64,000 bases of DNA, from the NCBI GenBank assembly GCA_014871385.1, contig CM026426.1, positions 87,273,026 through 87,337,025 on the forward strand, written 5' to 3'. The translations under genes and the position numbers were made by a program. Of the stretch, positions 38,441 through 60,460 are shown one piece after another. Every line of letters starts with the position of its first letter. Positions within the stretch are counted from its first letter, which is position 1. The notes below the pieces were generated by a model, which saw nothing but the letters and a program-made list of their open reading frames with translations, had not been told where the DNA came from and ran no database searches. This DNA is from Ceratodon purpureus. Its lineage: Eukaryota; Streptophyta; Bryopsida; Pseudoditrichales; Ditrichaceae.

Positions 38441-38454
38441 TGGAAACTGCCTGG

Positions 38455-39800: not shown

Positions 39801-40099
39801 ACAAACCCACCATACCCCCGGAATTAATAATTGATAGGAAAGAACTCTCCACCTTGCGTATACTTTGCATCCACCACCAATCCCGTTGTGTTGGCTCTCT
39901 TGAACTTTTGGCCCAACTCCACCTCATCGCATCCACCCTCCGACTCCCACAACTTCACACACAAATTGCCCCCCCTACCCCTCTCAATACTCGTGTCAAA
40001 CCTAGCAAAAGATGGTCTATCCTCTACTACCCAACCACCTTCAACCCGAATCCAATCATCATCCCCGACCTCCCAAATTATCATACCAACTTGCCCGTT

Positions 40100-41351
40100 A
40101 AATTCCACCCCCAATTCAGTTACTACACAGATGGCTCTTTTATTCCCCCTAAAGAACTTAGCACCGGTGAATGGCTCAGGGAAAAAGCTGGTTATGGCAT
40201 TTATAGCCCTAAAGGTCGTAGTCTTCCCAAACGACTCCACGGCCACTAAAAAATTCTCCGCGCAGAAATGATGGCAATCTTCAAAACACTTCGACTCATC
40301 AACACCCAATACCCTGACGAACCCGCATACATCTTCACCGATTGTCTCAATGTCCTCTACCTCCTTAACACGCACATCAAACACCCCACCTTACACAATA
40401 GTCACCCAGATCAAGTCACCCTTGCCTCCATGGTAGACCTACTCCAACAACGCACACAACCAATTACTCTCTACAAAGTCTACGCACACGTTGCCGTTGC
40501 TGGTAATGAAGAAGCTGACAAATTAGCCAAACTCGGAACATGCAAAGCACATTGCAACGCCAAACATGACTATGAACATGCCCATGCCACCCCTTCCTAC
40601 TTCCAAAAATACGATTGGCCTTCCATTATTTCTGTTCCTGACAAGGGCCCAGTCCGCAATCTCGAAAAACAAATCACCAAATATGACAGAGAAAATAACC
40701 TAGAAATCATAGCAATACAAACCCCCAACATATGCAAATGGACTAGTAATGCAGACATCGATAATGATCTCTCCAATGAATTTTGGAACAACCCCACTAT
40801 TACAGACAGACAGAAATCATGTCTCATCAAATTCCGCATCGGAACTTACATGGGCCAAGCTAGAAAACAACTATTTTTTGAAAGAGATCAATTCCCGTCT
40901 ATCACCTGTCCCATTTGCAACTCTCGTGAACAAATACATGGTTCCATGTCCTCCTCACATGCCAACAACAACACATTCAGTCCCTTCGTGTCAGATGACA
41001 TAACAAAGCAGTCTGGGAAATTAGAAGACTATTAGTCTCCTCTGAAAAATCCTTGTAGCATTATTTGTATGAATGTTGGCACCTTCAACAATGAACCCCT
41101 TGAAAACACCGTTCCTAAGTGGCTCCTACCTTGCACGTGTGGGACACAACGCTGCCATTGTAACTCCCACTTTCGCCTTGATATTCTTTGCGTCAAAGGC
41201 TTACCATACAAGAGTGACCCCCCTACAGAACCTCACCAAGATCTTACTATCCAATTCATTGAATTCACATACTGCAACGACTGTTTCTCCCCTGAAACCC
41301 TCACAGCTAAACGCAACAAATATAATCCCCTAATTGCCAGTATTACTGCCC
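40100..41351 (+). pseudogene. LINE RNase H domain, Cys/His finger and start of the C-terminal domain
   Basis: RNase H residues are visible in order: YYTDGSF (first Asp, about 40120), LRAEMMAIF (Glu, about 40260), IFTDCLN (Asp, about 40335) and VYAHVAVAGNEEADKLAK (His and last Asp, about 40480-40530). After it come CPICNSREQIHGSM, a degenerate Cys/His finger (about 40910), and FSPETLTAKRNKYNPLIASI (about 41285-41340). The frame is broken between the first and second blocks. The reading is cut at 41351 by the 19.1-kb element and resumes at 60461. Confidence 0.8.
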
Positions 41352-41379
41352 GAACACCATATTCGTTATTTTGGGAGAT
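41352..41379 (+). repeat. Left terminal inverted repeat
   Basis: 28 bp starting GAACACCATATTCG, exactly inverted at 60433-60460. Its inner half takes part in a second hairpin: 41367-41379 pairs with 41385-41397 over 13 bp with a 5-base loop, a structure absent from the right end. Confidence 0.9.
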
Positions 41380-41872
41380 TTATCATCTCCCAAAATAATG
41401 CATTAGGTCAGGTCGAGTTAAAATGGGCACAATGGTCCCATACTTGACAAGGAAAAGCTTATAAGCAATTTCCATTAATTTGGGACATGATCACACAGTA
41501 CTAATGGGAAATGAAAGAAGGTAGTGGTTTACTAGAAATACTTGAAAAAATACAAGGTAGGTCGAACCACCCTAAATGAACATCAAACAAATAACAAGAA
41601 ATGGACACAACGGATATGCTCGGAAATCTTATATTATATATATGTGTGGAAATACAAATTAGGTCGACACTCCTTAAATGTTGAATCCGTGACAGGCTCT
41701 TTCAGACCTGTACAAACAATCAAGTTGTTCGACTAACATAGCTGCCTACAGTTTCCGGAGTATGATATGCAATCCAAGAACATACGGACTTCATAATAGT
41801 CCCATGCCAACAAATGTATGTTATCGGCTCTACTTCAGAGATCCAAACTAGGAACTTCAACGCTAGATGTCG

Positions 41873-42204
41873 TTTAGGTCGCCTCGACCTAAATGGCTGT
41901 TATGTGGCAGTACATATGATATAGAATCAACGCTTTAGGGTACTAAGTAAAAAGCTACACTAAGAACTATAGGTGACCTGTTGGTATCCCGCACTCGTAA
42001 AGTACGAACTTCAACGCCAAATGCAGTTTAGGTCGCCTCGACCTAAACTGCGGTCTATAATGTGGTACACATGATAAATAAGGAATGGACAGAAACACTT
42101 AAGTAGTGTTCCCTCCAATTAAATATATGTAATTATCTAGTATTCAAAACATAAATACGCTAGAACTAATACGCTATAACTGATCAGGTCGACTCGAGCT
42201 AAAC
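41873..42204. repeat. Left subterminal palindromes
   Basis: Two near-perfect palindromes of the TTTAGGTCG / CGACCTAAA type lie at 41873-41893 and 42027-42047, and a hybrid site at 42184-42204 joins a GGTC half to a GCTC half. The first two are embedded in a longer direct repeat (GAACTTCAACGC...), 154 bp apart. Weaker half-sites are at about 41405, 41558 and 41658. A further stretch to 42324 has no gene. Confidence 0.8.
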
Positions 42205-42324
42205 ATCTACCTTTGTCTTGAAAACAGAAGGGACGAACGGTATTCAGTTCAGTCGTCTTCAAACGAATATAAGGGATCTGACTAAATTCAGAACTTCAAG
42301 ACCACCAACTTCAAAGCTACATGT

Positions 42325-45225
42325 TTATTCAGAATCCGGAGACACAAATCTCTCCAAGGAGGCCTTTATAATGTCCAGTTGTTTCAGTGGGATCTTCAGC
42401 GTTGGATCCTTGCCAACGCCCCGGTCGTTGACATTTTTTTTAACTTTTGATTTCCAAGCTATTATGACTGCATTAGTACTCTGCCACGACTCGGGTACAT
42501 CCTTCTCAACTGTCCAACGAAGTCTCCCATCCACATCCCAGCCGGTATAGAATTTCAAAACATTTTCATCTCGGGAAATTGGGCGGTAGAACTCTACTTG
42601 GAGCGTGTTTGGGAGGTCAGGGTTCGAATTAGGGTCAGTCAAAGCCCGCGCAAGCCAAAAAGGACGATCGTCTTCATCGCAGGGTCGTAATGCTAAGAAG
42701 TACCCTGCAAAAAGGTCTCGCGCAACACGGAACGACGGTCCTGGGCGATCTCGTTTGTGACCAACAAAGTGATCATCCTCTGCGAACTCCTCGCGCAAAG
42801 TTCCATCTTCCTGAAACTCGTCTTCGACGGAGTGAGCGAGCCGCGTGGATGGCCAAAAACCATGCTCCAAGGCGGGGACAACATCAAAGGGAATGGAAAG
42901 AGCCTGTTTAACATCGTTCCAATAGTATGAGAGTGGCTCATAGATTCTTCTGGACTCGACTGAATCCGAAGATAGCCTCTCCCAATGATCTACAAAACCC
43001 GACAAGCCCTTAATCACATCAGGCAGGTGCCGCATCTCGCGAGGCGCCACGGCACCAGGAACACCACGGGGCCATAAAGATCGACCTTCTGAATCCTCCT
43101 TCCACAACTTGATGCCACAACCATCTCCTTTTGGCAACCAGTCGTCGTCGTGACAGAAGATTTTATACTTCATGACTGGGCATCCTGAAGAATCTACATA
43201 GAATTTGAACTGATGAGCTTTAGTGTGACCCATTAACGTATCGTCGCCATCAAGCATCCACTCCGCGATGAATTTCTTGAAATCTGGGACCTCCTGAATA
43301 AGATGCGGAATTGTTGGTACTGCTTCATGTTTCATGAAGGACTTCATGAGGAGAGGTACTGTGGGGAAGTCCTCCCTCCGCAAAGCCATGCTCCATCGCC
43401 CGAAAAGGGCATCAATATCGTCATGAGTATGGCCGATCAGCATGAAATTCACGTACACTTCGCGAAACACCCGCTTCGCGACTAATAGGGACCAGAATGA
43501 AAATACAAACCTATTCTTGTTATCACTGACAGCGTTATCCATTTGGACGTTAAGAATGGGAGGCAAGGGTTTAGCAGCAACACGAACCTCAGGAGGAGGG
43601 CCAAGAGGATCCAAACACATCTCTGAACCATGCAAAAGCGCGGCATACAATGGGTGGGAAGGATTCTCTTGAAAGAGTTCCCTAGAGGTGGATTTAGGGG
43701 GTGACTCAAGGTCCCGAAGGAGCTTCGCAAACGATCCAACCGTGTAATTAGCGTCGTGTGAGTAAATGTCAAGGCCATAATGGGCGTAACGTTGGTCCAC
43801 ATGCCCATGAGCAAGCATTCCCGTGACAGCGAGAGGAAGCTTCATGAGACCGTCTAAGTGTTTGACCTTGTGGGATAAGGCCGGCGACGCCGTCTTCGAG
43901 TGGTCCATCTTGTCATGCATAATAGTAAGAACTTCATGCGGAGTAGCCTTCGACCTGAATCGATTTAGGTAGTACAAGTCCCTATGCGCCATTGCAGAGT
44001 CATTGTGCAGCCTCATTTTCTTAGACCACAACAGGGACGCCTGAGATCCTGTAACCGTCAACTTCTTCTGGGACTGGAACTCATCACATTTTGAGCAACG
44101 AGCGAAGTTGTCTCCTGCCCGTTTGGCGTAATAATCTGGATAGCTAAGCCTCCTGATCTTGCTCAAGTTAGAAGCGGACATAGGAGGCAATCCGCAGTCC
44201 GCTAAATGCTCATCGAGGATGGGAATCTGTTCCTTCCATTTGAAACTGGAAGGCAGAACTTTAGCTACAACTGTCTCCCCTGAAGGCAGAACACGACTCT
44301 TGTGGGGCATGTGGTCGGCATGCCTGTCCAGGATGGCCCCTAGGACGGCAGTTGCTACGACTGTGTGATTTCGAGGTTTACGTAAACCAGTATTACCGTG
44401 AAATTGAGCCTCGAAACCAGCAGCAGCATACTGGGCATTTCTATAGAATGTACTGGAGCTCACTCCCATAATCTTCATCCAGGCGAAGGGGCAAACATCT
44501 ATGCCCTCCAGAGTCACCACACTCTTCCCCGCTGAATTCTTGTGGATCTGTCTATGCACGTCGAGCTTTATGTGATTACGGAACTGCACTGTGGTCTTGT
44601 CGTACATACGCGACCGTAGACTAGAGATTTTATCTCTGGGATAGTGTTGGACGCATAGGTGAGCGCAGCACGTGTTTGCCGCTACAGAGTTGATAGATGG
44701 CTGGGTCATCAGAAACTCAGCGTGACGTGATATAGGAGGGGGGGTAATCCTAGAGGAGTTATCATACGATCGGGTACGATCTCCCAGGGATCGGTTACGC
44801 TCCGCAACCCAACGGTTATACACATCACGTTGACTATGGTGCTCTAGGCTAACTCCATCCAGATAGACGTGGCTGATAGGCCACGTTTTGAAGGAGTACC
44901 TCCAATCATCCTCTGACTCTTCTTCGACCAAAGAACTTGATACCTGGACGACGACTACGGAATCACCAAGGGGACCAACCGTGTCAGATACCAAGCTGGA
45001 CAGTGGGTTCCGGATCAAACCTTCTGCTAACGGGATATTGTCGTCACTATATATTGTTACAGTCTTGTTCTGCCATTGTCTTGAGGGTACAACCACGAAG
45101 TCTGGAAGGTCTGGGTTTACGGGCACTTCAACGGGTACCTCGTCATCGGAGACATAGTCCATTGTACCTGGAATGCAACAGACCCAATTTTGTGAGAACA
45201 TATTATACTCCTTAAAGAGAATCAA
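42325..45225 (-). CDS. DUF7869-type transposase-like protein (966 aa)
   Basis: A long intact frame in this element. Motifs typical of DUF7869 proteins are visible: a Cys-rich patch (CCAHLCVQHYPRDKI, about 186-200), FAWMKIMGVSSSTFYR (247-262), CSKCDEF (377-383), MHDKMDHSKTASP (436-448), NVQMDNAVSDNKNRFVF (559-575) and IGHTHDDIDALFGRWS (597-612). The spacing of D438/D441, D563 and D602-D605 suggests an RNase H-like DDE/D catalytic core; this is my inference. The C-terminal part (836-925) resembles a small chromatin-reader-like domain (GYFLALRPCDEDD, PFWLARAL, WDVDGRLRW). M22 (45162) is an equally good start. It is the best candidate for the enzyme that moves the 19.1-kb element. Five palindromes lie just upstream and may control it. 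Confidence 0.7.
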   Translation of the reverse strand: MILFKEYNMFSQNWVCCIPGTMDYVSDDEVPVEVPVNPDLPDFVVVPSRQWQNKTVTIYSDDNIPLAEGLIRNPLSSLVSDTVGPLGDSVVVVQVSSSLVEEESEDDWRYSFKTWPISHVYLDGVSLEHHSQRDVYNRWVAERNRSLGDRTRSYDNSSRITPPPISRHAEFLMTQPSINSVAANTCCAHLCVQHYPRDKISSLRSRMYDKTTVQFRNHIKLDVHRQIHKNSAGKSVVTLEGIDVCPFAWMKIMGVSSSTFYRNAQYAAAGFEAQFHGNTGLRKPRNHTVVATAVLGAILDRHADHMPHKSRVLPSGETVVAKVLPSSFKWKEQIPILDEHLADCGLPPMSASNLSKIRRLSYPDYYAKRAGDNFARCSKCDEFQSQKKLTVTGSQASLLWSKKMRLHNDSAMAHRDLYYLNRFRSKATPHEVLTIMHDKMDHSKTASPALSHKVKHLDGLMKLPLAVTGMLAHGHVDQRYAHYGLDIYSHDANYTVGSFAKLLRDLESPPKSTSRELFQENPSHPLYAALLHGSEMCLDPLGPPPEVRVAAKPLPPILNVQMDNAVSDNKNRFVFSFWSLLVAKRVFREVYVNFMLIGHTHDDIDALFGRWSMALRREDFPTVPLLMKSFMKHEAVPTIPHLIQEVPDFKKFIAEWMLDGDDTLMGHTKAHQFKFYVDSSGCPVMKYKIFCHDDDWLPKGDGCGIKLWKEDSEGRSLWPRGVPGAVAPREMRHLPDVIKGLSGFVDHWERLSSDSVESRRIYEPLSYYWNDVKQALSIPFDVVPALEHGFWPSTRLAHSVEDEFQEDGTLREEFAEDDHFVGHKRDRPGPSFRVARDLFAGYFLALRPCDEDDRPFWLARALTDPNSNPDLPNTLQVEFYRPISRDENVLKFYTGWDVDGRLRWTVEKDVPESWQSTNAVIIAWKSKVKKNVNDRGVGKDPTLKIPLKQLDIIKASLERFVSPDSE

Positions 45226-45257
45226 TCTCTAAATTTGAGAACTTATCCCAGGCGCAG

Positions 45258-45467
45258 TTTAGCTCGAGTCGAGCTAAACTGTTCCTGGACTATGGGAAGC
45301 ATGAGTTTAGCTCGAGTCGAGCTAAACTGTTGCTGCCCTTTAGATGCAGAAGTTTAGCTCGACTCGAGCTAAACTCATGCTGCCCTTTGGATGCAGAAGT
45401 TCAGCTCGACTCGAGCTAAACTCATGATGCCCTTTGGATGCAGCAGTTTAGCTCGACTCGAGCTAAA
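45258..45467. repeat. Five palindromes in a 47-bp tandem array at the transposase promoter
   Basis: 21-bp palindromes with arm TTTAGCTCGA start at 45258, 45306, 45353, 45400 (one base changed) and 45447. The spacers between the last four are near-identical (CTGCCCTTTGGATGCAG). The array lies 30-240 bp upstream of the 966-aa gene. Confidence 0.9.
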
Positions 45468-45479
45468 CATCTGTCCGCA

Positions 45480-45960
45480 AAAAGCGGCGTTTTAATAGGT
45501 GCTTGCATCTTTGGGATTCTGAGTCGCAGACTCAGAGTACGCTTACGGTGTCCGCTCTAAAACGTCTGTAAGAAGTAAAGAGAGACACTGCAAATACACC
45601 ATGACTTGAAACAATGGAAAGCATACAACAACCAGAAATGAATGAAGTGTACTGATGATCGGAGAAAACTAAAGAGAAGACGTACAAGAGAAACGGCGCA
45701 ATACAGCTTCCGCCCAGAAAACAACCACCTCCAAGTGAGCGCCGAGAGCTCCTACAAGCGAGAGAAGCAAGTGAGTAGAGAAAAGACTTCAAGCGGGGAC
45801 GATTCCAGAGGTCATTCTTTAACGTGTGACCGTTTTCATGCCGCTTCAGTTTTGAAAATAGGCGGGAATCATGCATGACCATTCGACCCTCCACATTTCG
45901 GGGTGTGAGAAAGCGCGGGAAATACCACTTTCCACACTTCTCGGCCCTTTAGATAGATGC
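45480..45960 (-). promoter_or_regulatory. Probable promoter region with E2F-like sites
   Basis: GC-richer than the DNA to the right. It holds GCGCGGGAAA (45913-45922) and GGCGGGAA (45861-45868), both like E2F/DP sites, and a palindrome CTGAGTC-GCA-GACTCAG at about 45519-45535. Overlapping open frames on both strands (45532-45894 minus, 45642-45878 plus) have no recognised motif. It may drive the 966-aa gene. Confidence 0.4.
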
Positions 45961-46062
45961 AGATGCGAAATATTTGGTGCATTTAATCAAATGGGATGGG
46001 TTGGAAGTCCCTATAGCGCCAGATAGAGTGTTGACTTTTGGCCGCGAACTTTTCTTCCTCTA

Positions 46063-46156
46063 TCAGGGTTCAGGGTTTAGGGTATAGGGTTCAGGGTTAA
46101 GGGTTTAGGGTCTTAGGTCCAGGGTCAAGGGTTTAGGGTATTAGGGTTAAGGCATT
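46063..46156. repeat. Interstitial telomere-like repeats
   Basis: About twelve degenerate copies of TTTAGGG and variants (TTCAGGG, GTTAAGGG, TATAGGG) in tandem. TTTAGGG is the plant-type telomere repeat. It marks the left side of the AT-rich island. Confidence 0.75.
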
Positions 46157-46639
46157 TTTAGGGACATTAAATATGTCGTACATGGAATAAAATTAAATCG
46201 AAAATTGTTTGAACCTAATTGAAATTCGTGAGTCTGGTTGATACAGGGAAGTATATCGTTGCAAATATTCATACCTCCATTTACTAAATATGTATTTTTC
46301 CTCAATTTCATTATTATATATCATATATGAAATCAAATTTAGAAACATTTATTTATTCTATAAATTTAGTCAGATATAATTATCATGTATATATATTCAT
46401 GTACTTTTATTTATGTCTCTATTTATTTCATAATGTGTTCTTTACGCCGTGAATGGTGTAGATTTGTTCTTTCATTTTTGGAACTCTACATCTTAACATG
46501 TATATTTTTAATATACATGTTAGGATTATAATATATATAATATAATTATATATTCATTTACAAGTAGGTACTAATATATTTATTAACAATTTAATGTCCA
46601 CTTAAGAATAGTACGAGAATAATTAACTAAAATCTAATG

Positions 46640-47375
46640 TATACAAATCTTAAAATGATATACAAGTATATTCAAGTATATACGCAATACATTGTTAAAA
46701 ATAATAGTATTAGATTATAGAATTTAATTCATTTCTCATGGCAAATTATATACGTTTTTTAGAAGATTGAATTTTTTATATTTAATCATGAGACGCAAAT
46801 ATTTGAACCATGGTATGCCTTGTATGATAGGCATGGGGTGAAAGTACGTTGACCTAAATGTAAGCCTAATATTCTTAAAGTACATGATAGTATCATAATT
46901 TAATTATAATATTATAATATAGTATAGTATACTAAGGCTCTAATATATTCATTTACAATTTTAGAATTAATTATTGATTATAATATGAGAATCATAATCT
47001 ATATTCAAGTATATACAAATCTAAAAATGATATACAAATATATTCAAGTATATATACGAAGTACATTGTTAAAAATAATAGTATTTGATTATAGAAATCA
47101 ATTCATATATTATGGCAAATTCTTTATATTTTTTAAAAGGTTTATGGTTTTTTATATATATTCATGAGAAGCGAATATTTAAACCATGGTATGCCTTGTA
47201 TGATTGGCATGGAAATTACACAAACCTTAATCAATTCATTAATGTTGTACCTTGACTTCTATTTGTACAATTTTATTACATTCTAATAAGAAAGTGGAAT
47301 GTTTGGTTCATTCATTTTAAAAAAAATAACTCATAAATTATGGATTCAAATGAAACGTATTAAACCAATGATCAT
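46640..47375 (+). repeat. Left arm of a long foldback, with an internal tandem copy
   Basis: 46840-47375 is inverted at 48800-49440 with strong but imperfect similarity, for example ACAATTTTATTACATTCTAA here and its reverse complement at about 48886. Within the left arm, 46670-46840 and 47030-47215 are direct copies of one another (both end near CATGGTATGCCTTGTATGAT). Confidence 0.75.
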
Positions 47376-47677
47376 AATTATAATTATAGTATTAATATAT
47401 AATGTCGAGAGAGGCTCTAGATGCTTGACTAAGCATACAATCCCATTAATCAATTCTTTAATAATAGAGTAAAATGACACATTTCAGTAAATCCGGACTT
47501 TCAAAAGCCCACATCGGTCAAAGTCCCGTTACCGAGTCTAGTCAAAGTCCCCTTCGTTACTCTGGAACATTCGGCTTCCCCCAATGCCGCTTCATAAGCA
47601 TAAGTTCCTGAGGGCGACGAAACAGTAATTTCATTCTTAGTTTCCCTTTTGTTTCATCTGCTTCTAGTTCATTTGCC

Positions 47678-48208
47678 GTGATGAGGAGGGCGGGCGGTGG
47701 TTTTAGGGTGTCAAGTTACTCGCCAGACGAGTGGGAGCCCGTTGTTTTCCCACAGGGAGTGGAGGAGCTTCGTCCATGGTTTATGGCGGTGGAACGCGCC
47801 CGTGGTCGCGGCGTAGAGATTCCTCCGTGGAACCTCATTGCACGCCAAATGCAGCCTGGTGTGGAGTGGAATTGGACTATTGCACATGGTCTAGAGCAAG
47901 TGGAGATTATGAACGCTTCCAACATCGATTTCCCCCTCACCTCCAACGAGGGCTTCTCCATGGCTGATTCTAATGAGGATGAGTGGCAGCCGGTTGTTTG
48001 GCCACAAGGAGTGGAGGAGGTTCGTCCGTGGTTTATGGCGGTGGAACGCGCCCGTGGTTGCGGCGTAGAGATTCCCCCATGGAACTACATTGCACGCGTA
48101 ATGCAGCCTGGTGCGGAGTGGGATTGGACTCTTGCACATACTCTAGAGCTAGTGGCGATTATGACCGCTTCTAACATCGATTTTCCCCTCACCTCTGGGG
48201 AGGTCTGA
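47678..48208 (+). CDS. Two-repeat DEW protein of unknown function (176 aa)
   Basis: A single-exon frame encodes two tandem 84-residue units, from residues 17 and 101. Each begins DEW(E/Q)PVV(F/W)PQGVEE and continues RPWFMAVERARG, GVEIPPWN, IAR, MQPG, EW, WT, AH, ending ASNIDFPLTS. By eye the units agree at about 60 of 73 residues. The family is not recognised. It is GC-rich in an AT-rich island and lies in the loop of a long foldback, so it is probably cargo of a mobile unit. No signal peptide or membrane segment is seen. The base sequence just after the stop repeats the linker of the first unit, hinting at a lost third unit. The start at 47678 has MM; the second Met is equally possible. Confidence 0.6.
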   Translation: MMRRAGGGFRVSSYSPDEWEPVVFPQGVEELRPWFMAVERARGRGVEIPPWNLIARQMQPGVEWNWTIAHGLEQVEIMNASNIDFPLTSNEGFSMADSNEDEWQPVVWPQGVEEVRPWFMAVERARGCGVEIPPWNYIARVMQPGAEWDWTLAHTLELVAIMTASNIDFPLTSGEV

Positions 48209-48799
48209 TTCTAATGAGGAGGGGAGCGTGGATTTGGGGAGCCCACCACATGAATGAGTAGGTGAATTGTTATCTCCTCGGAACCCTTAACCTTGTCCTC
48301 AGTTTGATGTTTTCATAATAATAGATTGCGTTTGCTGTATGTGGTGCGCAGCATTGTAGTGGCTCATGCTGTGTTCGTTCTGATTGTTAGGAGGATGAGT
48401 CCTTGCTTTTGACATGCACTTTTCCGTTTTGAACCCTAAACATCATACCATCTGATCCTGTTTTTATCTTTTCTCCAGAACTCGCAGGCATCTTCCATAT
48501 ACTTCTACGATTTTACTTTTTGCTGCTAAACACCTCAGATATGGAATGGGGACTCCAGGAGTAGTTAGCACAACCGTTAGATTATACAATATTTGGAAAC
48601 CATAGATGTGAAAAGATATGACTTTCATCTTTTGGTAACTTTTGCTGCTGGTATTCCCCGTGTGGATTGTAAACTATTTTTGGAATGGAATGCCTTCAAA
48701 ACAGGGCTCTTCTAGACGAAAACCAGTGTTTCATTTGATGCTTTCATATTTGTGTATTTCGTATTCTTATATGTCCATGCTAACTAGTAAATGTAGTAG

Positions 48800-49440
48800 T
48801 AAATTTCGTTTGAATCTATGAATTATGAATTCTGTATTTTAAAATTATGCAAATGAAGCAATCATTCCACTCTCTTATTAGAATGTAATAAAATTGTAAA
48901 AATATTAGTCAAGGTAGAACGTGAAAGAATTGATTAAAACTATTGTAATATACATGCTAATCATACAAGGCATATATATGAAGTACATTGTTAAAAATAC
49001 TAATTATATATAAAATTGAAGTATTATTATCATTAAATGCTAATCATACAAGGCATTCCATTATTATCAATAACTATAATACTATTAATGATAACTATAA
49101 TACTACTAAAGCATTTATAGTATAATACTATTAATGATAACTATAATACTATTAATGATAACTATAATACTATTAAATCATTAATAGTATTATAGTTATT
49201 ATTATTTTAAAAATGCTAATCATACAAGGCATACCATGAATATACTTATATATCATTTTTAGATTTGTATATAGATTTGAATATAGATTATAATTCTAGT
49301 ATTATTATCATTAATTAAATATAAAATTGTAAATGAATATATTAGTATCTTAGTAAACTATACTATATTATTATATTATAAATAAATTATGATACTAACA
49401 TGTACTTTAAGAATATGATGACAACATTTATGTAAATATG
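48800..49440 (-). repeat. Right arm of the long foldback
   Basis: Inverted relative to 46840-47375. It has extra AT-rich tandem units at about 49070-49190 (repeats of ACTATAATACTATTA). The GCTAATCATACAAGGCAT word occurs three times (48956, 49043, 49214). Confidence 0.75.
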
Positions 49441-51250
49441 TTTCCAATTAGAGTGTATGAAATTCATTTTCATTGCTAATAGTGTAACCATATTTGATGC
49501 TTTAGTCAAATAATTACAAATTATTATTACATAAAAAAAAAATGTACATTTTCATCCTTTACAATTGATCATAATTTGTCCACTTCGAAGCTCGAAATTG
49601 TGTATTTTTTCAAAACATCAGAAATTGCGTGCAATTTCTTTTGAATAGAATTTTAATTTATAAACCCTATTTGTTTATTCTGTATTATAATATTTCCATA
49701 TTTTACTGTAAATTTAGTAACGGGGAGGCTAAAAGCTAATAAAGACAATAAAAAAACATACTTCTCTATCTTTCATTCATAGAAATTCAGAAATCTAAAT
49801 CTAATGTAGATTCACAAATTTATATGAATCCATATATAATCAAAAAGCAATACCAACTGTACATAATGCAAGCATGTTTTGAACCATTGTAAAAAATTAC
49901 CAATCCTTTTCATCTGAATAAAAAAAAAATGAGTTCCCTATCCTGTTTAGTTTTCATTGAAACTCACACTGGGTTGGTAACCTCAACCCCATTCACAGTA
50001 CACATTAAGGGTCATGGTTCTCCAATCCCATGTGAGTTATTAGAGCCATCATGGTGAATTCTTCTTAAGGTAAGAAAGAGCAGGTTTACCGAACCATATG
50101 GGGTTAACAATTTGGAGACTGAAGCGCACTATCTATCTTTAAAGTAAATTCCTATAAAAAGTTATTTTCACTTTCTCACTACCCGAATCAGGTTCATAAA
50201 AATAAAATCAAAAAAGGGACAGTAATATTTAACTCGCAATTCTTACAAATATTAATAATACCATTTAGTGATTCTGATATAACTCAAATTATTATTCCGT
50301 AATGAAAATAAAATTTTTGAATTGCAGTATCTATGTACATACTTGTATATGAATTCTGAATTATCAAAATCTTTGAAATGGCATGGAATTTATTTGGAAT
50401 AGAACTCTAATTCATAATTATACTGACATGCTGCAGAAGAATAATATGATGATAACATTTGCGTAAATATGTTCCCAATTAGAGTATAGTAAATTAATTT
50501 TCATTGCTTATAGTGTTTTCATATTTGATGCTTTTGCAATATAATTGCAAACTATTATTTAAACTCCAATATTGTGTATTAAAATTAAATTTGTCTTTGA
50601 ACAAATATTAATTTCATATATCTGGAATGATTATTATGTTAATTAGGATTATTATGTTAATTAAATTTGTAGACGTCTCATATTCAATTAATATTAATTT
50701 TTTTAAAAGAGATGCAGGAACCAAATATTATACTTTCTTGTTATAAAGTAATAAATTTATACAAATATTTGCTTCGCATGTATATTTAATAAAAATAAAA
50801 TATTTGCTTCATATGAATATATCATAAAAATACAAATTTATTAGTTTCAAATTAGAAGCAAATTTGTACGAAAATATTTGCTTCTCATGAATATTTAACG
50901 AAAGTTGTATCTTTGCTCCTTATTAGGAAGTAATAAATTTGTACGCAACTTTAATTATTTGCTTCTCATGAATAAATATAGAAATTCCAATTCCCTAGAA
51001 ATTGTTAATAATTTTCCTAGTACTTAGATTGTATGCTTGCACAAGTGTCTAGACCATTACACATTATCATATGTTAATACTACAACAATCATGATCATAG
51101 ATGTAAGAGGATTAATTTGAATCCATAAAATGAGGATTGTATTTTTGGAATTATATAAAAGAGTGAAAAAAATTAAGTTCCGTTTTAGAATTTGATCAAT
51201 TCGAAAAAGTATTGGTTAGGGTAGAGGTTTAAATTTCTAGGTATATATAA
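49420..51250. other. AT-rich island, right part, with repeats
   Basis: No gene is supported. 49420-49540 recurs as a direct copy at about 50440-50560 (AATATG(A)TGA(C/T)AACATTT...CCAATTAGAGT). At 50730-50980 an ATTTGCTTC(T/G)CATGAATAT word is repeated about four times. The first shared word in a foldback arm (GCGAATATTTAAACCATG at 47172) is similar, so these repeats may be one degenerate family. Confidence 0.5.
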
Positions 51251-52598
51251 AAAAGAAATTCATTTCATCCCACGGGGACGGGGGATTGAACCCCGCGGTG
51301 ACGGGGCCACGCGATTTGGCGGCGCGGTCACGGGCCCGTGCGAGGGGGAGGAACTAATCCCCACCCCGACCTCGTCCACGAAGGTGTTTGCTCCTTCGTT
51401 TCTCTGTGTGTGTCTGTGTCTGTGCTTGTTTTTGGGTGGTGGCGGGAGTGAATTCCATGAGAGAATGTGCACTACAGTGTGTTTCGCGCGAGTTTTGGGG
51501 GCGTCCTCTGTTCCGTTTGCTTCCTCCAAGGGGTGTGAGTTGTTTGTTTGAAGTAGTGTTGGTCTCTAGGGTTTAGGTTTATCTTGATGGTTTGAAGTGT
51601 TCGTGCGCGGAGGGAGTTCCAGGTGTTTGGCGCTGCGGTCTGCATTTGTTTCCCAATTCTCTTTTCCGTGTTCTTGTGCTGGGTTCTTCCTCCGTCTTTA
51701 GGGTTTAGGTTTATTTCGATACTTCTATTCTTGTGCGAACTTCTTCGGTGCTCTGTGGAGGCGTGCGATTTGGATTGGGGTTTCTGGAGGCCTTGAAAAC
51801 GCTGCTGCGCTAATTTTCAGGTGCGTAGCATATCGCTTTACAGGTTTCCTCTTCTTTCAGTTCAATTGCAGTGACTTTTGCGATTTAGGGTCTTCTCAAT
51901 TGAGCTTTTTAGTTTATTTTCTCTTTCCATTATGAATCCTTGGCATGTTCTCGCTAGTTTAGGATAAGCATCCTGTAATTTTTTTAACGAATTCTGAGTT
52001 GTGTGTGTCTGTTTGTGTTCGTATTGTTTAGGTGATATGTGTGTGTCTGTCTGTGGTCGACTTCTGTCTTGTGTTTGTATTCTGGGTGTGTCTATTTGTG
52101 TTTGAATCCTGTGTTTCTTCGATGCTTGACTGTAATTGCTAGGTTTAGATAGGAATTCTCGTGTTATATGTTTTGGAATCAGAGTGCATGCATTTCAAGT
52201 GAATCTGAATCTGTGTTACGACTGTTTCTGCATGAGTGTCATTGCTGTGTGAAGAAATTTATAGGTTTTATGGATGAGGTGACTGCATTCAGATGTAGTT
52301 TGTGTTGTAGTTGAAGTTATGTTTAATCACATCTTTTTCTGAATTGGGTACAATTTGGCGCCAATGCTCACATTCACATGTTTCACCGTATGCTTATTAG
52401 ATCCCATTAGCTTATTATAGGAACTGTACATATGGAATCCAAGTTCATTTGTACTATTCACCCGTATTTTTCGGCACAATTCTACAACATTTTAATTATA
52501 GATGTATGTTCTGATCCTCTGCAACCATGATTCTTTTTTGCAGGAAGAACAAATTTGACAAGACATTCCTTCCAGAAATTGAATAAATCCATCAAGAA
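51250..52598 (+). promoter_or_regulatory. 5' region of the GQHS gene: GC-rich promoter and probable untranslated exon
   Basis: A sharp change to GC-rich sequence at 51260-51340 is followed by T/G-rich transcribed-looking sequence. A good donor (TTTTCAG then GTGCGTAG, about 51821) and a good acceptor (TTTTTTGCAG, ending 52543) suggest a 5' UTR intron of about 0.7 kb before the ATG at 52599. These are predictions from consensus only. Confidence 0.4.
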
Positions 52599-55500
52599 AT
52601 GGCAGAGAGGTAACAAACCAAATGCCAATTTTGTATAAATCTCCATATAGAACGTCAACAATTTAGCTCGAGTCGAGCTAAACTGCAGCTTCCAAAAAAA
52701 AGTACAAAAACTGAATAAAAACAATAATTTTGACACATTTAAACGAGAAAAATTCTGTTATACAGCCTTGCAGTTTAGCTCGACTCGAGCTAAACTGTAA
52801 GGAGCTTTGCAGTTTAGCTCGAGTCGAGCTAAACTGAACTGAACTTACAGCTAATCTGTAAGTTGTGAACTGTGGGAGCTCTGCAGTTTAGCTCGACTCG
52901 AGCTAAACTGCGGAGCACCTTACAGTTTAGCTCGAGTCGAGCTAAACTAGAGGTGTGACTCCCCTAATTTCCTAGAAGAGAAACCTACAGTTTAGCTCGA
53001 GTCGAGCTAAACTGTAAGTTCTCCCTTCTAAAGTCCTGGCAGTTTAGCTCGAGCCGAGCTAAACTGCAAGGGGATCATGGTGGGCGTCGAGCAATTTAGC
53101 TCGAGTCGAGCTAAATTTCTCAACTGCCTCAATGCTCCCCTTGCAGTTTAGCTCGACTCGAGCTAAACTGCTAGGATGCCCCGCATGATCCCCTTGCAGT
53201 TTAGCTCGAGTCGAGCTAAACTGCAAGGCTCCCATGCTGAAAGCCCAAGCAGTTTAGCTCGACTCGAGCTAAACTGCTGGGATGCAATCGGTTACTTGAT
53301 TAATAGTATCAACATTTAGCTTGAATCGAGCTAAATGGCTTTGAATTTGTCTAATGGTAAATGTGTCCTCCTCGCAGTGAGGAGAGAGCAAGGGTAACTG
53401 AGGCGCTACGACATTTCTTCAAGCCTGTTCCTATATCTGATTCAGATGACGATGACGGGGATGACTCAAGCACATACGAGCCGTGGACCTTCAAAGACCC
53501 CACGAAGGTCAAACATTGGACTCTGCGATGGGTTGCATACACCCCATATCTTACCTTCGCAACCATTTTCAAGGGAGAAGTCGATGATCCCGAGGTCATC
53601 GATATGGATACAAAGGTCACCGAGTGTGACAATAAGGGAAAAGACCAAATCAAGATCCTCTGCTCATCTACCGGGGCTAATCCATACCTCTTCTCCATAG
53701 TAGTAGACGTAGCGGAGAACCTCTTCGACCCCATTTCCTTAATGGAAAGTTTGTCCAATTCACCTTTCGAGGAGATAGTGTCCACGATGAGACAAGAAAT
53801 ACTGGACAAGAAATGGGCAACAAAGGATGGACGAACTCTCGGGGCGAAATCCCTAGCGTGGAAACTGAGGAATGTTGTCTGCACCCTTGCTCTCCGCGCA
53901 ACGGAGGCAAAGGTGAAGCAGAACCTCGGAAAATCTCAAGTTGACGTCTCTGGAGTGACAGCAACCGGGAGTCAAATGGGGAGCCAACAGACAGGACGCA
54001 GTAGGGGGAGAGCGATAGTTCCATCCCAAAGCCGAGGCGCTTCTGCAACTCCCACGCCCCACTCACCATTGAAGAAGAAAGGACTCGAGAAGAAAACTGA
54101 CAAGCCAAAGCCCAAGAAGGACTTGCTCTTATCTGCAGAGGACTTGGCAACAAGTTTGAACTCTGTTCTCGGGGAACTCCCCAAGGTGAACAAGGCTGGA
54201 GAGATCCTGGACTTCGACAACGCCAATCGCATTTACCAGAATTTCTTTTCTGATTGCCAGGACGAGTTCGTCTTCAAAACGAATGGGCAACCAAAGAAGT
54301 TCAGTGTGGACGTGACGCGGTGCAAGCCCGCACCGGCCGCATGGACTATCCGTGCATATGAGAAGCGGGGCATGGAGGAGATGAAGAATTACCTGGTCAA
54401 CATGCCTGATAGGGGTCAAAAGCAAACCCTGTGTCTGATGCCAGACACGAAGGCACGACCTCAACAGGAATCGGATCTGGAAGGCTGTGAATTCCACATC
54501 ATCAACGGGCAACACAGCGTGGCGGCGTCCAAATCTCTCATCGAAGATAACGCCAGTGAGGAGTTGTTGAGGGACTTCAGGAGGTGGGATGCGTACATCG
54601 TCTGGACGAAGGATCATGATAAGCTGCGAAAAATCTCAGCATTCTATAATCGGGTGAACCATCTCGCACCCTTCAAGCCAACTTGGGCGAGCAATATACT
54701 TGCCGCTAGAAAAGTGTGGGAGAAGTATGGTAAGCCCCAAAAGAAAAATGCTGCCGCTGGTGCTGCGGACCGCAGGAGTACAGGTCCGAAAAGTAATCCA
54801 GCGTCGAAGACATACGAGGTAACTTCACTGATTCATTAGCATTAGCAGTTTAGCTCGACTCGAGCTAAACTTCCTGCAGTTTAGCTCGAGTCGAGCTAAA
54901 TATTGATAGTCTTTTTCGTTTTCAATATTCTGGTATACCTCGATCAATTTAGCTCGAGTCGAGCTAAACAGTAGTTCCGAGACAGCATCATCTAAGGTTT
55001 CTTCTTGTGCGTATGCAGAACTTTTTGAATGCTATCAGGGAGCGCTTCGCTATGATCGATGTGGCGAAGCATCAAGCCATGGTGGCGAAGAAGGGAGGGA
55101 AGAACACTATCTCCCTAACAAACGAGCTGTTTATCATCACATCCAGTGATGAAACATGGACCTGTGGAAGGAGGGTGATCGCGTCTGCGGCATGTGGTGG
55201 ACTCATTGATCCCGACAGCGAACCTCCGCATAAGAAATTCTATGAGAGGAAGGGGTTCGTTCCGGACAAGGATGGGACGCTTCCAAGGGAGTTCTTCAAA
55301 TGGCTCGGGAACTTGACAGAGGCAGATCACCAGAAGATGTGTAAGCACATCCTGCATAAGTCTGGGCCAAGTCGAAAGTACACATATCCGAAGGTTACCA
55401 TCAAGCAGAATACGAGTGTATTGGAGGACTGCTACTCGGTCAAGGAGTGGGCGGAGCGGAGAAAACGTAAGGCTGTAGCTCAAGCGGAGTTCAACAACAT

Positions 55501-57439
55501 TAATCCAACGCTCCATTTATTCAAGAGAGACGGCCTTGATGTACCCGCTTGGAAGCAGTTCAAGAAGACTTACTTTGTCTCTAAGGAGTCGAAGCACGTT
55601 CTGCTTGATTGGGATATTCCAGACTCGTACTGGACTAACTCCAGAGCTACAACAGTTCCGCAACAAGTCGGCCAAGGATATCTCCCCATATGCGGTTGAG
55701 TTTCTTTAAAACCTTCCTGAAGGTTTCGACATGCGTTTAAGTGTCCTTCAGCTGAGATGTGGTTCCTCCCATTCATCAGGGAGCCTCGACTCGCATTTCG
55801 GATCTTGGCCCTCCGATATATGGAGGTTGGCGGGCGGCGCAACTCACATTCGGAATCATCGACTACCGGTTCCCTCCCAACTACAAGACGAGGCAGAACT
55901 ACCTTTGGAGAACCCCTTCTTCATGGAGTTTCTTCAATATGATCGAAGAGTATGGGCAGCCCCAGTTTAACGATGTTCGGCACTGGGCTTCTCATTTGCG
56001 GAGACGATGAGGACTTCGCCAAGGTGCTCACTTGGGTGGAGCGAACACCTTGAGTGGTCCGCAGAAGAGTCCATTCAGAGTATTTACCCGCTCCTAACGA
56101 GCGACTTCGGCGGACACCCCCCAAAGAGCAGAATCGCGATGGAACCCGTCTAAACTCTTGTTTCTCATTGATGATAATTTACTTGAGAACGAAGTGTCAA
56201 CGCCAGAACCTCTGAGCGAGTACAGAACTGCGGACCCCCACTGTACAAGGACAACAGGAAGTTTAACGAAAGGAGGTACGCAATGGATGGAGTCCATCCA
56301 AGTTAAGCTACCTGCAGGTCCTCGACACTTTCTGCAGTACTGGGAAACGAAGTCCCTCATAGCCGCCGCGGTAAGTTTCCACACTTTAGCTCGAGTCGAG
56401 TTGAATCGTTCCACTGTTTTTATCACATGCACCATGTATGCACACACTTCCACACTTTAGCTCGAGTCGAGCTAACCGTGTTTACCTTGTCTTTGTTTTC
56501 TTCAGATGCTCTCGATCTCGTCTTTCGTGGTCGCGGATGATAGTGACTCTCCTCATATGGTCGAAGCTCAGGCACTTGGATTAACTCTGGACCCAACCGA
56601 TTTTAGTGTCGACGCTTATTTTGTCGATAAGGAACGGTTTCCGGAATACGGCAGAGCCGTGCGGAAAGGGAAAGGCAGAGCTGCGGAGGAGGGTGACGAT
56701 GTTGATCTGGAGGAGGATGCCCCCACCGAGGAACAGACCCCCTCCCAGTGCTGCGGACATTAGCAATGAGAGCGATGCTCCGCCTTCTGATCCGGTAAGT
56801 CAGACAGCATCTGAGGGTAGAGTGGGGAGAAGACTCGAGTTTCCAGACGTCGACATTACACGTACGGACGATGAGAGACCGGGTTCTGCACCAGAGCTGG
56901 GATCCGGAAGTGGGAGAAAGACTGGCGCTGCGCGAAGTACTGGAAAGCCGGCTCAGAAGAAAAAGAGGGTCAATCCTCCAGCTCGGCAAGCCTCCCCGTT
57001 GGGGAGAGCCGCTCCCGATCCGGATATTCAAGCTATTCTCGCAGAATTGCAGGCGTCCAATGCGAGGAATAAAGCATTACAAGATCGGATGGCACAGCAG
57101 GAAAAGGATATAGAGAAGACCGTGCAGGCGGCACTGCAGAATGTTCTGCAAGGCATGAGTAGTGCCACTCTTTTCCCGAATGCGGGTCCAGTTCTGCCCA
57201 ATGTCCAGCCAATAGGTAGTGCCCTGCCTACTTCGCGAGTACTTGAGATTTTGGGCTCCCCTACTGGTGGTGCAAAATTGCCAGAGTTGGATCCGAGTCC
57301 CGCAGCAGTGCCTGAGCCAAGCCATCATTCCACCGACCAGGTCATGCGTGACCGTAGTCCCAGTCCTCCCCGTTCTCCCTCCCACAATCAGACTCAGGGA
57401 GATGCTCCCGAGACATCTTCAGGTCCCTCCCAAACTTAG
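52599..57439 (+). CDS. GQHS/ParB-like protein, four coding exons, with frame breaks
   Basis: Exons 52599-52609, 53378-54818, 55019-56370 and 56506-57439 have GT-AG borders; the first two join in frame (M-A-E-S-E-E-R), and exon 3 is entered in frame. Exon 2 has an acidic start (SDSDDDDGDDSS), a Lys/Pro-rich linker, and CEFHIINGQHSVAASKSL at about residue 378, which resembles box II of the ParB/sulfiredoxin-like fold (GERR-type motif). KLRKISAFYNRVNHL and WASNILAARKVWEKYG follow. Exon 4 ends Pro/Ser-rich after a coiled coil (LQASNARNKALQDRMAQQ). Exon 3 shows about three frame changes between 55630 and 56160, and exon 4 one near 56735, so this copy is probably dead or the sequence has errors. 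All three introns contain palindromes. A DNA-binding or nuclease role is inference only. Confidence 0.5.
52662..53335. repeat. Twelve palindromes in intron 1 of the GQHS gene
   Basis: Sites start at 52662, 52774, 52813, 52887, 52926, 52991, 53043, 53095, 53147, 53200, 53253 and 53315. Ten are exact versions of TTTAGCTCGA, one base, TCGAGCTAAA; 53043 and 53315 carry changes. From 52991 to 53253 the spacing is 52-53 bp. Both central bases (C or G, i.e. both orientations) occur. Confidence 0.95.
54849..54968. repeat. Three palindromes in intron 2 of the GQHS gene
   Basis: Exact 21-bp sites at 54849-54869, 54880-54900 and 54948-54968 in a 200-bp intron. Confidence 0.95.
56385..56476. repeat. Two palindromes in intron 3 of the GQHS gene
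   Basis: Sites at 56385-56405 (right arm altered) and 56456-56476 (last base altered), each following CCACACTTTAG, so the intron contains a short internal duplication. Confidence 0.85.
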
Positions 57440-57542
57440 ATTTTTTGAACTCGGAATTTTGTAGATGAGGTGTTAATACCGGAGTAGTTCACTGAAATGT
57501 GCATTTTGTACCAAAACGATTGTAATTAATACAAATGGGCTG

Positions 57543-57563
57543 TTTAGCTCGACCCGAGCTAAA
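57543..57563. repeat. Palindrome between the GQHS and phosphatase genes
   Basis: TTTAGCTCGA, then CCCGAGCTAAA: one arm base changed. It lies about 90 bp before the first ATG of the phosphatase gene. Confidence 0.85.
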
Positions 57564-57633
57564 CCGTTCAACTGTTTACCAATCCCGTCTATGTCAGCTT
57601 CATTGATCACTCTCTGATGATTCAATAGTTCTC

Positions 57634-58621
57634 TTGCAATGCCCAGGTCACGAAGTGAATGAGGAAGTGGAATATCTTCGGGTCGTGGATGATGTTGTCA
57701 TGGCCCAAACTGCGGATGAGACTGGACGCACAAATATGGATTTAGATGTCACGGCCCAGTGCGCTCTGACCTTGCCAACGTGCGTAGAGGTCTTTCCTAG
57801 CGATCAACCTCAGAATTCATTAGGGTCGATGGGTCCTGTGGAGGATCGGGATGTTGTAGAAAGCCAAGCCGAGGATGCTCAGGTATTTCATCTATCATTA
57901 TATCTCGTTGCACTATTTCCTTCGAGAATGACTTGCCTTGCAACTGTCCTTATTGTATCATTCGTATAACCCCGTCCTAGTATAATATAGTAATGTCCAT
58001 CTGTCATCGGTATTTCCTCTCCAGGTGCGCGAGGCATCTGGATGTAACGTAAGTTCTAGTGAAGAATTGAGTCCTGTCCCGACAAGACCTCAGAGTGGTT
58101 GGTTGAACGTTGTCCTCGACCTTAATGGAATACTCTGCTCCAGTACTCCTAATTGGCCTGGAAAATCATTCGTTAGCCATGACCTTAGCATCCACTCAGC
58201 GTCCAAGCCAGCAGTCGTGGGCCCCAAGCTTGTTTGTGTCAGGCCCAATTGCGCTGATTTCCTTCGTCGGTTGTCAGCATTCGCAACCATAACCGTCTGG
58301 AGTTCGATGAAGACTTCGACGACAAAAATGATCTGCGACTATCTGTTCGGTCCGATTCGTCCTGTCTATCCGCTCAGAATTCTAGGTCAAGAGGACTGTC
58401 AGAGAGTTCCTATGGGCGTAGATTTTCGAGGTCGTCCGATATATATGAAGGAACCCGGGACTCAGAAGGACATCTTCCTTAAGCCGATGTCCGATGGTCT
58501 CTTTCGTAAATTTGGTGGCATATATTCCGAGGCCAACACCATTTTTATCGACGACAGCCCGATCAAGCACTGTCAGAATAATTCTTACAATGTCCTTCTA
58601 CTCTCCACTTGGAACAACTAG
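57634..58621 (+). CDS. FCP1/NIF-like phosphatase-domain protein, two exons
   Basis: Exons 57634-57882 and 58025-58621 join in phase 0 to give 281 residues; 57883-58024 is a GT-AG intron. The second exon carries a HAD-type phosphatase domain of the FCP1/NIF family: WLNVVLDLNGILCS (motif I), VRPNCADFLRRLSAF, TITVWSSMK (motif II), FLKPMSDGLF (motif III region) and TIFIDDSPIKHCQN (motif IV). Motif I reads DLNG in place of DLDE, so the second Asp is Asn, a form I also associate with plant relatives. A TAG at 58619 stops the frame inside the domain; 63 further open codons (NPDAADDRFLLSKLLPYL...) to 58813 continue the family pattern. The substrate is unknown; relatives act on the RNA polymerase II tail. 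The first exon could instead begin at an acceptor near 57644. Confidence 0.65.
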
Positions 58622-58813
58622 AATCCCGATGCCGCAGATGATCGTTTTTTGTTGTCGAAACTTTTGCCATATCTTGTAGACCTACACCACTTTGTGGGGA
58701 CAATCGCTAGATTCAGGGCCGAGCGTCCGATCGGGAAGAAAATGTATTATGATGACCGTTCTACCTGTGAACAATACGCTAAGATTAATGAGGCAATTAG
58801 TCGTAGACCATAA
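58622..58813 (+). other. In-frame continuation of the phosphatase domain after TAG
   Basis: The frame stays open for 63 codons after the stop and matches the expected C-terminal end of the FCP1/NIF domain (LLSKLLPYLVDLHHFVGTI). Either the stop is a recent nonsense change or it is skipped by splicing or read-through. Confidence 0.5.
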
Positions 58814-59154
58814 TTTCGCATGGTTCCGGTTCTCTACTTTGTGAATAGACATTTCATCACTGCCGCGCACCTATTAGTATGTTGTACATCTTAACCACTT
58901 GCGTAATCTTTGTATCCAAACTACTCCTTTTGTAATACGAAGATCATATTTCTTTCTTGATCTACTCTGCCCCTTGCGACGAACCCTTATCCATTGCTGA
59001 ATTATTGGTGGATGTATGTTTCTATTCGCTTTGTGTATTGCAGGATAATGCATGTCGAGCCTCTGTGGATTCTTTGAATTATGCTTATGGCTGCGGGCCC
59101 TCTCTACGTAGCAGAGGGCTTCTGTTGCAATCCGTTGCAACAGCGCAGTCCACG

Positions 59155-59873
59155 ATGGACTATTCAACTATGGCTGTCGACGAAGGGGTTGTGGACAGCC
59201 CGGTTAACCTGTCCGTTCCCAAGACCCTGAAATCCCCTTCTCCTATGTGGCCACGGACCGTACTGCATGTTCTATCTCCGAAACGACAGAGTTCTACCCC
59301 TACAAAGCGTGCTCTTTATAACAATGTGGTGGACATGCCGTCACCACCACCGGCAAAGGTTGGTTTTCATTCCTCAGTATTCACTCTTCATTCCTTTCTG
59401 ATGTTTCATTCTTGTAAGTTTCTTTCATGATGTTTCATTCTGATGTCTTTATTTTAGCTCGAGGCCACCTAAAATGATTGATCTTCTTATACTCTCGTGT
59501 AGGTCTAGTTGTAGCTTATGTAGGCCTCCTCGTTCAAGGTCCGTTCGACCTTTACAATTGCACTCAGCAGTTTAGGTCGATTCGACCTAAACCGAAATCT
59601 CTTCCCAATGCTAATTTATCCCCTTTGCAGATGCCGAGGCTGCGATCAACAACTACTGGATCCAGGGCAAGGAAGTCCGCCGACTCCCACTCTAAACCAT
59701 CCAGTACCCGTCGCCACTCTCTGCCAGAGTCAAGCATCGGTGACAGGCGTAGGCAGAAGTTGCAACGTCTTCTTGATAGTCCAATGATGCAGGTTGAGGG
59801 AATGTCGTGGACACGTCAGCGCCAACGGGAATTCGTCAAGTCAAGAATTGAGGCTTACGGAGGGACTCCATAA
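59155..59873 (+). CDS. Small basic Ser/Thr-Pro-rich protein, two exons (148 aa)
   Basis: Exons 59155-59358 and 59631-59873 join in phase 0 across a GT-AG intron that contains a palindrome at 59571. Exon 1 has Pro-directed phosphorylation-like sites (LKSPSPMWP, VLSPKRQSSTPTKR, MPSPPPAK). Exon 2 is strongly basic (MPRLRSTTTGSRARKSAD, DRRRQKLQRLL) and ends SWTRQRQREFVKSRIEAYGG. The frame is open upstream to an acceptor near 59044, so an upstream coding exon is possible. The product is not recognised. A basic partner protein in the transposase complex is one idea; it is inference from position only. Confidence 0.5.
59571..59591. repeat. Palindrome (GGTC type) in an intron near the right end
   Basis: TTTAGGTCGA, one base, TCGACCTAAA. 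A weaker relative is at 59452-59474. This is the subterminal type, here inside an intron. Confidence 0.9.
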
Positions 59874-60181
59874 CCATATAGAGGATACTATGTACTGTAT
59901 AGCAATGGCGCAGACAATATAGACGATTATAAGACTCCTCTGTGTTATTTCAATGTAATTATGTTTTGAATAAAACGATTGATCTGTTTGTCATATTTTC
60001 TCGTCTGCTATTTTTGCCTCATTGTCTTGCACACTTTTTGTGTTATTCAAGTTTCCAAATGTAATTTATGTAATTTATGGACATTGCCTTTTATTGAAAC
60101 CTTGGTTTAGAAAAGGTAACGGATAGTTACTACTAATATTACAGGGGACGTGGTATATTCTTTTTCCTTGTTTATATTGCG

Positions 60182-60304
60182 TTTAGGTGTGATCGACCTA
60201 AATGACTTAATCATCATCTCTATTTAAACATGTTTTTAATGAATCAATGAACATTACTAAGTTTTCTCCTGTATGTTCGTGCATTTAGGTCCACTCGACC
60301 TAAA
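60182..60304. repeat. Right subterminal palindromes
   Basis: GGTC-type sites at 60182-60202 and 60284-60304, each followed by TGAC, lie 130-280 bp from the right end. They mirror the sites near the left end. The rest of 59874-60432 is AT-rich and non-coding, with the polyadenylation region of the small basic protein gene (AATAAA at about 59970). Confidence 0.85.
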
Positions 60305-60432
60305 TGACATGGGCCTCATTGTTCCTTTAAGGTGTTATTAATGATTCAATATTGATTTCCGCAAGATTGAAGTAAATGGGAGATGACGAATGTCGCCATT
60401 TCTCTGCACTCTGATTTCCCAAAATCAAGAAT

Positions 60433-60460
60433 ATCTCCCAAAATAACGAATATGGTGTTC
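60433..60460 (-). repeat. Right terminal inverted repeat
   Basis: Exact reverse complement of 41352-41379, followed by CC and then LINE coding sequence. Confidence 0.9.

Follow-up and report, generated by a model that had tools for sequence, protein, structure and literature searches.

To our knowledge, sequence-specific self-recognition by plant transposons is documented best in one group of elements from Arabidopsis. These elements, the VANDALs, are Mutator-like, and encode a transposase, VANA, together with an anti-silencing protein, VANC. In the maize transposon Spm, many copies of a short word occupy the subterminal regions and are bound by an element protein, TNPA, and Galileo (THAP) elements reportedly also carry many copies of a short word near their ends for a protein of their own. 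Here we describe a transposon from the moss Ceratodon purpureus that occupies about 19 kb (positions 41353-60459) of a 64,000-nucleotide stretch of DNA, ‘the window’ in what follows, from chromosome C6 (C6:87273026-87337025; C6 has 110,524,308 bases, in a genome of 362.5 Mb). It carries many copies of a 21-bp palindrome that are probably binding sites for a protein encoded by the element. Whereas the repeats of Spm and Galileo are subterminal, these lie for the most part well inside the element, where they occupy the introns of its genes and the DNA 5' of them.

According to two papers (PMC5735166, PMC10398659), VANC systems use an element-specific word of 8-9 bases, found in introns, intergenic DNA and terminal non-coding DNA, in tandem repeats that expand and contract, and related families use related but different words. 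The moss element likewise has a family-specific word in non-coding DNA that forms tandem arrays, but this word is a 21-bp palindrome, and a text search of PMC5735166 found no mention of palindromes. Nor does the element conform to the definition of Mutator-like transposons, whose target duplications are 7-12 bp long (PMC10741241); it has 4-bp duplications, an open reading frame (ORF) with a DUF7869 domain, and an orphan gene, ‘gene 2’. The Sola superfamily, as PMC10741241 describes it, has 4-bp target duplications and terminal inverted repeats (TIRs) of 11-1124 bp, includes members above 15 kb, and is present in the moss Physcomitrella. The present element resembles Sola in its target duplications. 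In a search of open-access papers, we found no description of this system and no mention of DUF7869. The sister DUF7869 transposons described below, with their own words in the same layout, are new here.

Occurrence of the palindrome

At three mismatches or fewer, the window contains 30 matches to TTTAGSTCGANTCGASCTAAA, all within 41873-60304 and none outside that interval. An earlier note on this DNA had reported about 29 palindromes and none elsewhere in the window, and at this threshold both statements hold. Loosening the threshold to five mismatches brings the number to 33. No match occurred in 100 dinucleotide-preserving shuffles of the window, and a chance origin is thereby ruled out.

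The ends that the note assigned to the element are right. Identical 27-bp TIRs, AACACCATATTCGTTATTTTGGGAGAT at 41353-41379 on the forward strand and its counterpart at 60433-60459 on the reverse strand, are bordered by an imperfect 4-bp target duplication (cccg at 41349-41352 on the left, ccca on the right; three of four bases agree). Among the 15 end pairs examined, the 14 other than the window copy all have perfect 4-bp duplications. Because of its identical TIRs and these 4-bp duplications, we classify the element as a TIR transposon. A 28-mer that includes one flanking base finds 363 ends in the genome (178 + 185) at three mismatches or fewer, and a control finds 0. The left TIR is invariant in 29 left ends, although these ends had been preselected by requiring 21 of the 27 bases to match exactly.

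In exact form, with either type of arm, the word has 2484 occurrences genome-wide and none in a control. These copies were listed in full for chromosome C1 (29.0 Mb) and counted on the other contigs. On C1, 43 of the 44 lie inside two copies of the element, one of which has a single TIR in the stretch read, and one is isolated. Abundant copies in unrelated DNA, which would speak against a role in the element, are thus not seen where this can be checked, and the note's proposal that the sites serve the element is supported. A reader encoded by the element would be the simplest reason for a word so nearly confined to it. That the word is merely a generic one can be rejected: viral contigs do not contain it, and among 257 billion bases of prokaryote genomes three records have it, each a single time.

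The isolated copy (C1:15616582) lies in the stretch L013:4516-4603, which has the exact palindrome at 4583 and a single arm at 4516; beyond these, nothing resembling the element was found there. By eye, this palindrome precedes an apparent intron acceptor.

Placement within the element

The element encodes a DUF7869 frame (42325-45162, reverse strand) and at least two more genes, both on the forward strand. In the model that we use here, splice sites were read by eye, which leaves some uncertainty over the exons of gene 3. Gene 2 begins with an 11-bp exon (ATGGCAGAGAG, 52599-52609), followed by a first intron of 768 bp (52610-53377), exon 2 (53378-54818), an exon 3 region (55016-56370) whose frame closes at 55699 in this copy, and a last exon (56505-57439). 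Gene 3 (57986-58621) has a NIF/CTD-phosphatase-like domain (Pfam PF03031, E 1e-10).

The 30 palindromes form eight clusters. Three are on the 3' side of the DUF7869 frame, between it and the left end (41873-42203; G-type at 41873 and 42027, mixed at 42183), and five lie just 5' of it in an array of C-type units with a period of 47/48 bp (45258-45467). Gene 2 has 12 C-type copies in intron 1 (52662-53335, the last seven at steps of 52-65 bp), three in intron 2 (54849-54968, within 54819-55015) and two in intron 3 (56385-56476, within 56371-56504). A single copy (57543-57563) occupies the gap between genes 2 and 3, two (59453-59591; mixed at 59453, G-type at 59571) lie in a late intron (59359-59632), and two G-type copies, 102 bp apart, are subterminal on the right (60182-60304). 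Three further, degenerate G-like palindromes with 4-5 mismatches occur near the left end (41402, 41556 and 41658, within 41402-41678); these were found in another copy of the element, E1, and the window has the same letters there.

By this model none of the 30 palindromes lies in an exon, and the note's statement that they are ‘kept out of exons’ stands for this element. With about 40% of the element coding, eight independent clusters would all miss the exons with a probability of about 0.016, and the avoidance is real but modest. The two arm types also differ in position. All five full G-arm sites are within 0.9 kb of an end and the two mixed sites within 1.0 kb, while the 23 C-arm sites are 2.9-7.8 kb from the nearer end. 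Between the types, both arms change together.

Conservation of the arms

The array 5' of the DUF7869 frame could be compared across 30 copies of the element. These are the best-scoring of 47 copies, the window's included, that were scored among 1777 candidates for the DUF7869 ORF, and they lean towards well-kept ORFs. Sites were picked at four mismatches or fewer, and they follow one another solely at steps of 46-48 bp, so no unit was missed inside the arrays. The number of units is eight in 24 of the 30 copies, and ranges from 5 to 12. Across 248 sites, the arms are mismatched at 21 of 4960 positions, whereas in the spacers of 26 nt (186 of 218) 1099 of 4836 letters are not those of the column majority. 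The centre base is G or C in 246 of the 248. In the intron-1 arrays of four copies, arm mismatches number 7 in 820, and 23 spacers differ from one another, pairwise, by 56%. The same holds outside arrays: at 11 unambiguous single sites on the right side, three copies differ from the window at 13 of 660 arm positions and at 117 of 1810 positions in the 30-bp flanks (Fisher p 2e-6). The data thus support a word that is kept while its surroundings mostly turn over. The note had proposed that the word itself was selected or spreading, and the better keeping of the arms relative to spacers in both arrays and to flanks at the 11 sites, together with the sister words described below, supports a hold on the word.

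Several spacers of the 5' array are exact reverse complements of other spacers, which suggests that array units were copied in either orientation. In one array of 12 units (L039) four spacers recur as a block with their order unchanged, in another of 11 units (L043) this is partly so, and in a third, of 12 units (L027), it is not; the blocks in L039 and L043 point to duplications of several units at once.

An initial comparison of cores with other classes of sequence was confounded by a shifted alignment of the array, and the array and single-site comparisons given above are used in its place. For the copies E1, E2 and E3 it gave 32/441, 19/436 and 22/436 differences in cores, 57/4033, 127/4033 and 320/4029 in exons, and 159/2935, 221/2889 and 277/2873 in other non-coding DNA. 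When the five 5' cores are aligned straight through the array, they show 43 minor letters in 3023, above any codon position of the DUF7869 ORF, a figure to which shifts of the array and the toggling of the centre base contribute.

Sister families and their words

Other transposons with DUF7869 frames are present in the same genome. A genome search, in which 150 of 1394 candidates were scored, sorts them into several classes by length of open frame, and in four class members we read stretches chosen to lie upstream of the DUF7869 domain (the start of the ORF was seen, by eye, only in L067). Related arrays are present in these stretches in all three loci of the 942-, 966- and 980-aa classes. They consist of 21-bp palindromes at steps of 25-26 bp in which the outer bases TTTAGCTC and GAGCTAAA are the same as in the window and the inner bases are changed (TTTAGCTC-xxxxx-GAGCTAAA). 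The two arms agree best in the 966 locus. Compared with the window's word, the 966 word differs in both arms together, and keeps 16 of 20 arm positions. The outer word TTTAGCTCNNNNNGAGCTAAA occurs at 3532 places in the genome, and the 966-type word TTTAGCTCACNGTGAGCTAAA at 446 (control, 0 for each). The first 50 of those 446 places include 49 that stand upstream of one of six DUF7869 hits and no more than 25 kb from it; the DNA within 25 kb of the listed DUF7869 hits makes up at most 1.8% of C1-C5.

The layout is shared as well as the word. In the sister element on C1, 9.6-10.3 kb separate a second array from the DUF7869 domain downstream of it, and in the window the corresponding distance is 9.1-9.8 kb. 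In the 1351 bases on the far side of this array (L071), where the window's layout would place it, there is a homologue of gene 2, 27% identical over 378 aa (E 1e-24), with the motif IINGQHS kept. From this matching position we conclude that the shared layout is old. The word (16 of 20 arm positions) has changed less than gene 2 (27% identity). On C1, mixed words, half ours and half sister (TTTAGCTCGATGTGAGCTAAA), were seen at 18096744 and 18096906, at the expected 3' end of the sister transposase, and are placed like the copies at 42027 and 42183 in the window.

The 678-aa class is more distant. Its upstream open frame of 682 codons includes a stretch that is 26% identical to that of the window element over 300 aa, and its word, GTCGGCnnnnnGCCGAC, occurs four times in 2.5 kb, once before the first ATG (by eye), among half-sites, and three times inside the frame. 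Exclusion from exons, as claimed in the note, is therefore not universal among these families.

Candidate readers of the word

The DUF7869 protein is a probable transposase. The ORF has 945 codons from its ATG (PF25273, E 6e-42), and the 967-aa frame has this match alone in Pfam, at 143.8 bits against a gathering cut-off of 26. Its 47 scored copies are 96-100% identical. In the left-end alignment of 29 of the 30 copies (L037, which lacks the exact TIR string, was dropped), minor letters occur at a rate of 0.0033 in first codon positions, 0.0012 in second and 0.0128 in third, as under purifying selection.

Gene 2 is the other candidate. Profiles from Pfam, NCBIfam, PHROGs and PADLOC gave no significant family match, only weak hits, and sequence comparison with the PDB also gave weak hits only. 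The gene was not found in phages, and queries of IMG/VR with single proteins returned no close viral relative of either gene 2 or the transposase. The motif IINGQHS in exon 2 resembles ParB/DGQHR signatures, and we take this as a lead only. Palindromic sites together with a protein bearing such a motif would resemble the ParB/parS systems of bacteria, but no convincing match to gene 2 was found in those four profile collections or in the PDB.

What the palindromes may do

We think it likely, on the sequence comparisons above, that the palindromes are arrayed binding sites for a protein that is encoded by the element and controls the element's own genes and ends. An odd-length palindrome of 21 bp, with fixed arms, repeated 5' of genes and near ends, has the look of an array of dimer sites. 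The protein that reads it would be sequence-specific and probably dimeric, with the gene 2 protein and the DUF7869 protein as candidates. The C-type word, in the 5' introns and promoters of genes, and the G-type word, in both subterminal regions, would mark the element as ‘self’, and the bound protein may raise or protect the element's own expression and mobility. Candidate outcomes are anti-silencing, activation and autorepression. The closest working model would be anti-silencing of the VANC type; under the same head, the main alternative is autoregulation by the transposase, which would bind its own promoter and ends. Arrays would grow and shrink by tandem duplication while selection holds the word, and the altered inner bases of related families would allow each family mainly to address itself.

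Several observations weigh against this account. No recognizable DNA-binding domain was found in gene 2 with the profiles named above, and structure models made without an alignment were unusable (mean predicted local distance difference test score, 36.1 for gene 2 and 35.5 for the transposase). The hold on the word that is evident in the arrays and at the 11 right-side sites is not visible at three left-end sites among 29 young copies, in which 6 of 63 core columns are variable versus 71 of 885 in the surroundings (p 0.63), and minor letters number 11 in 1827 versus 239 in 25620 (p 0.20). Arms might also stay alike through gene conversion from one core to another. The isolated copy on C1 shares about 35 bp with the element and is otherwise surrounded by unrelated sequence, and among the 50 listed sister words one is 33 kb from the nearest DUF7869 hit. 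In the 942- and 980-aa loci the words are mostly non-palindromic in their inner bases; in the 678-aa class three of four full words are in an ORF; and in the window two sites, 42183 and 59453, are mixed. Anti-silencing as the outcome is suggested by analogy with VANC.

Other explanations can be set against the same data. Introns and 5' regions hold most of the copies, which may thus be transcribed, and the palindromes could then be RNA hairpins that act in splicing or RNA stability, with no protein reading a DNA word. Consistent with this, the flanks immediately next to the 21-bp core show more self-complementarity within a site than between sites (the observed value was reached by 1, 0, 0 and 203 of 5000 permutations in four element copies), but such a signal may also stem from spacers copied in inverted form, or from repair by template switching at quasi-palindromes. 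Hairpins are unlikely on several further counts. The core is constant as a sequence and not just in its pairing, since mismatched cores in the 5' array change in one arm alone, with no compensating change among the types listed; there is no covariation between opposite columns in the 26-nt spacers, several of which pair below expectation; and the word is also present at subterminal sites outside genes.

The palindromes might instead be a minisatellite, or a small hopping palindrome, carried by the element as a functionless passenger. The range of 5 to 12 units per array would suit passive spread, as would spacers shuffled and inverted among copies, the isolated copy with its short similarity, and the left-end sites that vary like their surroundings. 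Neutral arms should decay like spacers, however, and the arms observed here do not; the 11 singly aligned right-side sites are held too, and the 966 sister, even with a gene 2 of just 27% identity, retains 16 of 20 arm positions and the same placement. We regard a passive origin as quite improbable. A host factor, such as a host transcription factor that the element exploits, could be what binds the sites, since first introns and 5' regions, where they sit, are open to host regulators. This is very unlikely, given that on C1 the word is almost confined to these elements, and that its inner bases differ between related families in one host, which suggests readers specific to each element.

Other features of the element and its surroundings

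The middle of the element (46001-52598, 6.6 kb) is mostly AT-rich and has no palindromes of the family. At 46849-49436 and 47726-48206 it contains nested inverted repeats of 167 and 123 nt and a small ORF, duplicated in that it consists of two 229-nt repeats that are 87% alike; this is perhaps a nested element. At the left flank (37684-41398) there is coding sequence like that of a long interspersed nuclear element (LINE), with an RNase H domain at 40250-41035 (Pfam). The right flank (60460-60720) may be its continuation, in which case the transposon may have inserted into a LINE.

Copies of gene 2 (87 scored of 716 candidates) are distributed unevenly by age. Those below 92% identity are on C6 in 28 of 30 cases, and those of at least 95% in 21 of 49 (p 4e-6). 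C6 is probably a sex chromosome, and a non-recombining chromosome may keep old insertions.

Significance

It is possible, although we hold this only tentatively, that the DUF7869 transposons of mosses evolved sequence-specific self-recognition, for anti-silencing or self-activation, apart from the VANCs of Arabidopsis, by means of 21-bp palindromes and the orphan gene 2 protein, the inner bases of the word diverging as families split. The presence in one genome of several sister families that spell the word differently provides ready pairs of words and proteins for tests of co-evolution, and the arrays could serve as orthogonal DNA address tags. If the proposal is true, this would be a second case of self-recognition, in mosses and in an unrelated transposon, and such codes would evolve repeatedly; the addressing code would also be an old one, its DNA word more faithfully preserved than its presumed protein readers.

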